Virus record (IMG/VR): IMGVR_UViG_3300042402_003072
Coordinates: 1-21,743 of that record
DNA: 21,743 nt
Direction: 5' to 3' (one strand)
From: a virus
Shown here: positions 15,841 to 16,889 of the stretch, piece by piece
Position numbering within the stretch: position 1 is the first letter of the stretch
Layout of the letters: each line of letters opens with the position of its first letter
Position numbers and translations under genes: made by a program
The notes under the pieces: model-generated
Database searches by the model: none
What the model was told of the DNA's origin: nothing
Seen by the model: only the letters and a program-made list of their open reading frames with translations

Positions 15841-16889
15841 CTAGAAGAATGGCAATTGAGTTTTCTTAGTTGTTTCTAAGTTATCATCAATAATTTTACT
15901 TAGGGCTTCTCTTTCTTGGGCTGACATATTCAATACATCAACATAAGATACCCCACCCCGCATATACCATGAAAATCTTAAAGCCGTTTCTTTTATAAGA
16001 TTGGTTTCTTTTTCCATGCCATCAAGTAGCTTCTTGACCTCTTCGGGTTTTAGGTTAAGAAGCTTTAGGCGAAAAAATCAGAAACGTTCAATACAAATGG
16101 TTGCTCATAATCATGTGAGCAAGAAATACACTTTAATTTTAATGGTTTGGTTTCAGTAGATGCTCTCAATTCAATACTTGTATTTTTGATTCTTTCGTAT
16201 GTATTTCTATCGGAATTTTTCAAGAAATCCATAATGTGTTCTTTGTTATCTACCTTTAAAGTAGGTGTTTGTACATGTTCAATACTTTCGCAAATTACTG
16301 ATAATGTAATGTTGTTAATTGCACTTAGTAACCTACTACTTTCTTTTAATTTTTTATCGTCATCCTCAATTACACTAGCTTGAATCATTGCTCTTTGTAA
16401 TTCGGTTTGTGCAATATTAGCATCATTGATTTGCTTATAGCTCAATGGTTTGAATTTAACTTTTAATTCACCCAAATCTAAAGGTGTATTATAATCACCG
16501 GGTGTGTAAGTTTGTAATATTCCACTAAGATTAACTCCGTAGCTACTTGAATCGTCACACTTTGGGCAAGTGCTTTCTAATTCTAAAGTACCGTCACCGC
16601 TAGCCGCTCTGATAGCAACCAATATAGGATCAATGTCTATCGCAGGAATAACCCATGGGTTTTTGATAGAAGGAACACAGCTTTTAATAATGTCCGTCAC
16701 TGCTACGCCGTTGTACAATGCATCTGGTGTTTTGCTAGTTATTTCGTCAATCGCCGTCATTGGATAAATCGGAACTTCTCCGTTCTCGGGCATATCAATT
16801 GAGTCTGCAGGATAAAAGTTCCCACCGCTAGGTAGTTTTAAGTATAATGCTGGTCTGCGAAAATACTGTCTTAACGGATTATCTGTCAT
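15841..16889 (-). CDS. gp26-gp51-like fusion made by -1 frameshifting (predicted)
   Basis: Translation of gp26 up to TTT TTC (F272-F273), a -1 slip on T-TTT-TTC at 16077-16071, then 76 more codons (16071-15844) to TAG at 15841-15843, would give a 349-residue protein. The extension reads RLKLLNLKPEEVKKLLDGME, then LRFSWYMRGGVSYVDVLNMS, and ends NLETTKKTQLPFF. It resembles short gp51-like hub-assembly proteins that follow gp26 in T4-like phages. The frame is open from the slip site and has no ribosome-binding site at its first ATG (16017), so frameshifting is the simplest way to express it. By analogy with lambda G/GT, the long form would bind the tape measure during tail assembly. Slippage is predicted, not shown. 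Confidence 0.65.
16028..16077 (-). promoter_or_regulatory. Programmed -1 ribosomal frameshift cassette
   Basis: Minus-strand order: slippery heptamer T-TTT-TTC (16077-16071, form X-XXY-YYZ), a 6-nt spacer GCCTAA holding the zero-frame stop, then a stem. The stem is AGCTTCTT (16064-16057) with AAGAAGCT (16035-16028), 8 bp. It continues after one A-C mismatch with ACCT/AGGT, 4 bp, and an 11-nt loop. Element order and spacing match the classical -1 frameshift layout. Confidence 0.7.
16065..16889 (-). CDS. 26: Baseplate hub protein gp26-like (zero-frame product)
   Basis: 274 residues matching the T4-like baseplate hub family: LKLPSGGNFY near the start, PMTAIDEITSKTPDALYNG, IIKSCVPSIKNPW and DPILVAIRAASGDG. 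Two Cys pairs, C108-PK-C111 and C254-IS-C257, probably form a zinc ribbon. In T4, gp26 and gp51 are needed to assemble the hub. The start is set by GGAG 10 nt upstream. A perfect late box (16929-16936) precedes it by 39 nt. The stop TAA lies in the 6-nt spacer of a frameshift cassette, so most ribosomes would end here and a fraction would continue into the gp51-like frame. It is encoded opposite to the adjacent tape-measure gene. Confidence 0.82.
   Translation of the reverse strand: MTDNPLRQYFRRPALYLKLPSGGNFYPADSIDMPENGEVPIYPMTAIDEITSKTPDALYNGVAVTDIIKSCVPSIKNPWVIPAIDIDPILVAIRAASGDGTLELESTCPKCDDSSSYGVNLSGILQTYTPGDYNTPLDLGELKVKFKPLSYKQINDANIAQTELQRAMIQASVIEDDDKKLKESSRLLSAINNITLSVICESIEHVQTPTLKVDNKEHIMDFLKNSDRNTYERIKNTSIELRASTETKPLKLKCISCSHDYEQPFVLNVSDFFA

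Follow-up and report, generated by a model that had tools for sequence, protein, structure and literature searches.

The gp26-like gene on the minus strand of the window, as the 21,743-nucleotide DNA sequence of an uncultured phage analysed here is called, ends at a conserved slippery heptamer from which a conserved coding extension opens in the -1 frame. The best explanation for this arrangement was canonical -1 programmed frameshifting, by which one gene would produce both a short and a long tail-assembly chaperone; we place the probability of this reading at roughly 0.88, judged from sequence. The computational analysis established the slip site, its frame and conservation, selection on the extension, an excess of RNA structure, and the equivalence of the locus to separate short and long genes in other phages.

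In the proposed mechanism, most ribosomes would read the gp26 frame to its TAA and release the 274-aa short form. A minority would be paused by a hairpin beginning 6 nt downstream of the heptamer; the Phe-tRNAs in the P and A sites would slip from TTT/TTC to TTT/TTT, and reading would go on for 76 codons to give a long form of 349 aa whose C-terminal domain is mostly helical. If gpG and gpGT of lambda are a guide, the tape-measure protein would be coated with many short and few long subunits, and tail-tube subunits may be recruited by the extension. Slippage, its rate, the short:long ratio and the binding partners are inferred.

Slip site and reading frames

Table 1. Features of the predicted frameshift locus, in window coordinates
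Feature	Position	Strand	Remarks
0-frame gene, gp26-like, 274 aa	16065..16889	-	putative short tail-assembly chaperone; zinc-ribbon-like CxxC pairs
slippery heptamer T TTT TTC	16071..16077	-	P-site TTT, A-site TTC; predicted to re-pair as TTT TTT
6-nt spacer GCC TAA	16065..16070	-	includes 0-frame stop at 16067-16065
outer stem, 5' arm AGCTTCTT	16057..16064	-	partner 16028-16035
inner stem, 5' arm ACCT	16052..16055	-	partner 16037-16040
inner stem, 3' arm AGGT	16037..16040	-	partner 16052-16055
outer stem, 3' arm AAGAAGCT	16028..16035	-	partner 16057-16064
-1 frame extension	15841..16071	-	76 codons (RLKLLNLKPEEV...TQLPFF), TAG at 15843-15841; putative C-terminal domain of long form
first in-frame ATG of -1 ORF (58-aa ORF)	15841..16017	-	possible independent start, not conserved
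1274-aa ORF, divergent neighbour	16947..20771	+	probable tail tape-measure protein

On the minus strand the end of the gene reads GAT TTT TTC GCC TAA AGCTTCTT A ACCT, an 11-nt loop, and AGGT C AAGAAGCT (Table 1). The heptamer has the form of a canonical -1 site, X XXY YYZ read in the 0 frame and closely followed by the stop of that frame. Immediately 5' of the heptamer the -1 frame has a TGA, and 76 codons are open after the slip, so that a change of frame is possible only at the heptamer. Across the 5,624 codons of the window's 11 main genes, no other T-type heptamer, whether T TTT TTC or T TTT TTT, was found in frame. The heptamer, the 6-nt spacer with its stop, the hairpin of 8 + 4 bp and the 76-codon -1 frame had been pointed out in a preliminary description of this DNA, and all were confirmed letter by letter. 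Scans of the window for Rfam families and tRNAs gave no matches. Short palindromes (agatgaacttcgttcatct; gagaacttcgctacgctcgttctc) lie 3' of the -1 ORF at 15730-15810 on the minus strand, and one of them (15767-15754) was scored as terminator-like.

Conservation of the heptamer

A search of IMG/VR recovered 60 gp26 relatives; together with the window, 55 loci could be analysed, 43 of them distinct. T TTT TTC was in register in all 55 loci, at protein identities as low as 31%; the alignment of related phages that the preliminary description had suggested for the heptamer thus bore it out. Elsewhere in the family genes Phe codons were TTT 395 times and TTC 111 times (78% TTT), and none of the 13 other Phe-Phe pairs was TTT TTC. 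The position of the 0-frame stop varied, from 3 to 18 nt behind the heptamer.

The reverse search, with the extension alone, returned 80 loci, 78 of which had the site; in 76 T TTT TTC stood exactly at the start of the match, and the partial matches L231 and L260 contained it too. The site was also present in 37 of 37 relatives found with the fused protein of loci L257/L258 (see below), some of which overlap the earlier loci, and T TTT TTC occurred in 80 of 80 cyanophage-type contigs. This constancy makes a chance match untenable. That the window is a single metagenomic contig might have pointed to a chance heptamer, an error in sequencing or a degenerating gene that an indel had split, but the arrangement recurs in well over 100 contigs and in isolate phages, and this reading can be dismissed. 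Chance and sequencing error were ruled out by the conservation across relatives.

Among named phages, T4 carried two copies of PF12322, the family to which the short form belongs, and 18 others carried one each, nearly all of the 18 with a T-run slip site and an extension. T TTT TTC with a -1 extension was found in the jumbo phages 121Q, GAP32, RaK2, PA5oct, Atu_ph07, Phosso, SCTP-2 and Vibrio 2.275.O, and likewise in S-PM2, P-SSM2, KVP40 and phiW-14; the SCTP-2 gene was missed by the PF12322 search and was found by tblastn. T TTT TTT replaced it in XacN1, Cr30, phiM12 and HTVC008M, and T TTT TTG in phiM9. The jumbo phages are like the window in that the extension is homologous over its full 76 residues (profile E 9e-26). 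In those of their records that were viewed it was entered as a separate hypothetical gene or left unannotated, and in none as a joined frameshift product. The cyanophages (Kyanoviridae) and KVP40 share with the window T TTT TTC, the -1 extension and a single PF12322 gene, but their extension is 60-63 aa long compared to 76 codons, and the cyanophage stimulator is SD-like whereas that of the window family is a hairpin.

Two named phages depart from this pattern. In Salmonella phage Vi01 (L087) the PF12322 gene is followed by a -1 extension-like ORF and the canonical heptamer is absent (ATT TTC ATT TAA). In Rhodothermus phage RM378 (L100) the gene has a T7 run at its end (TCC TTT TTT TGG) and the extension-like ORF is in the +1 frame, an arrangement that suggests +1 or -2 shifting.

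Coding evidence for the -1 frame

The preliminary description had considered the -1 frame to encode a plausible protein, and purifying selection supported this view. The extension was nearly free of indels, with 76 codons in 53 of the 55 loci and 77 in two, and pairwise pN/pS among the family loci was 0.40 in the -1 frame compared to 1.0-1.5 in the other two. In the stretch 5' of the first ATG the value was 0.53 in the -1 frame, compared to 0.84-1.33 in the others; selection therefore covers a stretch that would be exclusive to a frameshift product. The -1 frame of the family is thus protein-coding and conserved, and a search for a start codon of its own, also suggested at the outset, revealed none that was conserved; in L048-L052 the first ATG is at codon 39 of 78.

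These data bear on the reading of the -1 ORF as a small gene in its own right, a stand-alone 'gp51' with its own start that is translated by reinitiation. The public records of P-SSM2 and KVP40 enter gp26 and a short 'gp51' as separate genes in just this way, and cyanophages have an ATG 2 nt past the gp26 stop and an SD-like GGAGGG upstream. In the window clade, however, 47 nt separate the stop from the first -1 ATG, which is not conserved and falls in the middle of the domain in some relatives, and selection and amino-acid conservation extend back to the slip codon. A separate gene would also leave the invariance of the heptamer unexplained, and in L257, T4 gp51 and EC-F2 the domain is joined to the short form. 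We consider a separate gene very unlikely.

Stimulators of the predicted frameshift

Stimulators of such sites are a hairpin starting approximately 4-10 nt downstream or an SD-like sequence 6-17 nt upstream (PMC4066793), and the hairpin predicted in the window begins 6 nt past the heptamer. At -14 kcal/mol (16064-16028; z = -3.5) it was equalled or surpassed by only 1 of 200 dinucleotide shuffles. In the family alignment 73% of the alignment cells of the stem were paired, compared to at most 50% for slid versions; fixed-column covariation was not above that of shuffles, and RNAalifold returned a different helix of near-zero energy. For these reasons codon-preserving shuffles, which keep both protein and codon usage, were used instead. 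By this measure the 44 nt that follow the heptamer had a z of -5.03 in the window and a mean of -3.1 in close relatives (n = 17), with control segments at about 0. Support for the hairpin therefore comes from excess stability and not from covariation. The preliminary description had proposed that spacer and stem be checked in relatives as well: the values given for the window stood, but conservation was partial, since the stop shifts as noted above and a clear hairpin was missing in about one third of relatives (for example L021, L022 and L048-L052).

An SD-like GAGG/AGGGG motif 9-11 nt upstream of the heptamer was present at 52 of 55 distinct cyanophage sites, whereas the window family had it at 1 of 41. 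Its position in L083, L086 and the cyanophage loci L102-L181 matches dnaX-like stimulator spacing.

Slippage of RNA polymerase on the T run, in place of ribosome slippage, would draw on the homopolymer itself and on the longer T runs of XacN1, phiM12, Cr30 and HTVC008M. RNA polymerase slippage usually requires longer runs, however, and nearly all of the sites have T6 followed by C. In addition, the X XXY YYZ register was always kept, phiM9 has T TTT TTG, and a downstream hairpin or upstream SD-like stimulator lies at ribosome distances. Transcriptional slippage is therefore highly improbable.

Relationship to T4 gp26 and gp51

Support for ribosomal frameshifting also came from phages in which the two forms are encoded separately. 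In L257/L258 (record lengths 260 kb and 148 kb), which are identical in sequence in this region, the extension is fused in frame (...HEYEQLLMLNYCEYF-RVRLLYMQPEEI..., that is, CEYF-RVRLL) with the junction where a -1 slip would place it; the slip site is lost (TATTTTC), and a short-form gene lies directly 3'. A fused long form plus a short gene is what would be expected if both forms were needed, and this locus is the strongest evidence that they would be and that the slip would make the long form. In L279, a 260-kb phage contig, an in-frame-fused long gene (2501-3553, plus strand) is followed in tandem by a short PF12322-like gene (3572-4423, plus strand); next to that of Straboviridae, such a fused/short pair would be a second, apparently independent duplication that replaced frameshifting.

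Pfam and PHROGs searches did not recognise the extension of the window clade, and profile-profile comparison with shuffled controls was therefore needed. The frame-fusion profile of the cyanophages aligned end to end with T4 gp51, through the slip junction (E 2.2e-18), and PHROG 634 matched the C-terminus of gp51 as well as the extension of the cyanophages. The window-clade extension matched the cyanophage extension (E 7e-4) and, over 34 columns, the C-terminus of T4 gp51 (E 8.9e-5), in each case above 100 of 100 column-shuffled controls; the full window-clade fusion matched T4 gp51 weakly (E 0.0016). The extension, which had been called gp51-like, is thus homologous to gp51 but matches only the C-terminal 35-50 residues or so of the T4 protein.

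As in the window, the T4 (Straboviridae) genes belong to PF12322, the gp51 C-terminus is homologous to the extension, and the end of gp26 coincides with that of the short form. As judged from these alignments, T4 gp51 corresponds to the long form in its entirety and T4 gp26 to the short form. T4 differs in having two divergent genes without a slip site, compared to one gene predicted to make both forms, and the slip site was absent from all five Straboviridae-type gp26 genes that adjoin a gene 51. A relative with the gp51 frame elsewhere had been named in advance as evidence against the frameshift. The divergent gene 51 of T4 is such a case, which we explain by gene duplication; the reading in which a frameshift joins gp26 to the -1 frame was otherwise supported by conservation, selection in the -1 frame, the stimulator and the in-frame fusions elsewhere. 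T4 gp28 was left out of the comparison because Pfam places it in a different family (PF11110).

The principle has been published, as far as can be judged from articles that cite the work. Vladimirov, Gautam and Davidson (2022, Virology 566:9-15) are cited in PMC10885494 for T4-like phages that have a short gene and a fused long one, and in PMC12846349 for T4-like TAC-N genes with poly-T slippery sequences. The recasting of gp26 and gp51 as a short and long pair, which the preliminary description took to be non-standard, is on those citations to be credited to that study, although public records still keep the two genes separate. Sullivan et al. (2010) had already described the gp51 of cyanophages as similar to the C-terminus of gp51 and as having only about 20% of the normal length (PMC3037559). 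In the literature searched, which included few subscription papers, there was no report of frameshifting in the jumbo or lake phages, of the alternation of hairpin and SD-like stimulators, or of the L257/L258 duplication. The window locus fits the published pattern, and the comparison usefully extends it.

Tail-chaperone frameshifting has been described as widely conserved with T4 as an exception (Atkins et al. 2016; PMC5009743), and the present data place it within the wider family of T4. A frameshift would account for the split gp26/gp51 annotations, and the long form was missed in the annotated records examined. Relatives with one gene and a slip site, compared to those with two genes and none, constitute a natural experiment. 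Overall, the comparison tilts towards one-gene frameshifting as the ancestral and predominant route to the gp26/gp51 pair in T4-superfamily and jumbo phages, with two stimulators that are interchangeable (an SD-like motif upstream of the site in cyanophages, a hairpin downstream of it in lake and jumbo phages) and replacement on at least two independent occasions, in Straboviridae and in the L257/L258 phage, by gene duplication and in-frame fusion.

The short form and its neighbourhood

The 0-frame protein matched PF12322 (T4_baseplate) with an E of 3.7e-16 and 59.9 bits, compared to a curated cut-off of 24.5; T4 gp26 and T4 gp51 matched the same family. It also matched PHROG 150 (phrog_150, baseplate hub; E 1.2e-15), and its AlphaFold model (pLDDT 89) resembled T4-type baseplate hub proteins in BFVD, where the extension alone had no convincing match. 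Searches of the PDB by sequence and fold revealed no solved counterpart of the 0-frame protein at E ≤ 0.001 and no solved structure tying the PF12322 fold to lambda-type chaperones.

The divergent neighbour probably encodes the tape-measure protein, as suggested by its size, its composition and coiled-coil-like sequence, its position and its conserved adjacency; domain searches returned only a weak SLT match. Several relatives with loci that reached that far had a divergent ORF of 776-1280 aa immediately upstream of the chaperone gene.

Frameshifting may be real and its products nevertheless structural or catalytic parts of the baseplate hub, in keeping with the database names of gp26 and gp51 (baseplate hub, hub assembly catalyst) and with the failure of the PDB searches to find a structural link to lambda gpG. 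The short/long arrangement adjoining a probable tape-measure gene fits the tail-chaperone class instead, and Vladimirov et al. (2022), according to PMC10885494 and PMC12846349, put T4-like genes so arranged in that class. We regard hub parts as quite unlikely, and the products as putative tail-assembly chaperones.

Like lambda gpG/gpGT, the window locus combines a late -1 slip that would add a C-terminal domain to a short chaperone, giving two products from one gene, with a chaperone gene that adjoins the tape-measure gene, which in the window is only probable. As in the lambda G/GT class, short and long forms were accounted for computationally, at one locus through the predicted slip site and in L257/L258 and Straboviridae through separate genes. 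The two systems differ in that no sequence relationship was detected, the slip site is T TTT TTC rather than the G GGA AAG of lambda, the window has a hairpin stimulator, its chaperone gene is divergent from the tape-measure gene, and no solved counterpart was found for its PF12322 fold.

The window is a fragment of a T4-superfamily genome. It also carries a late sigma factor gene at 11033-11935 on the plus strand (PHROG 12791, E 2.6e-73), near gp46/gp47-like genes.
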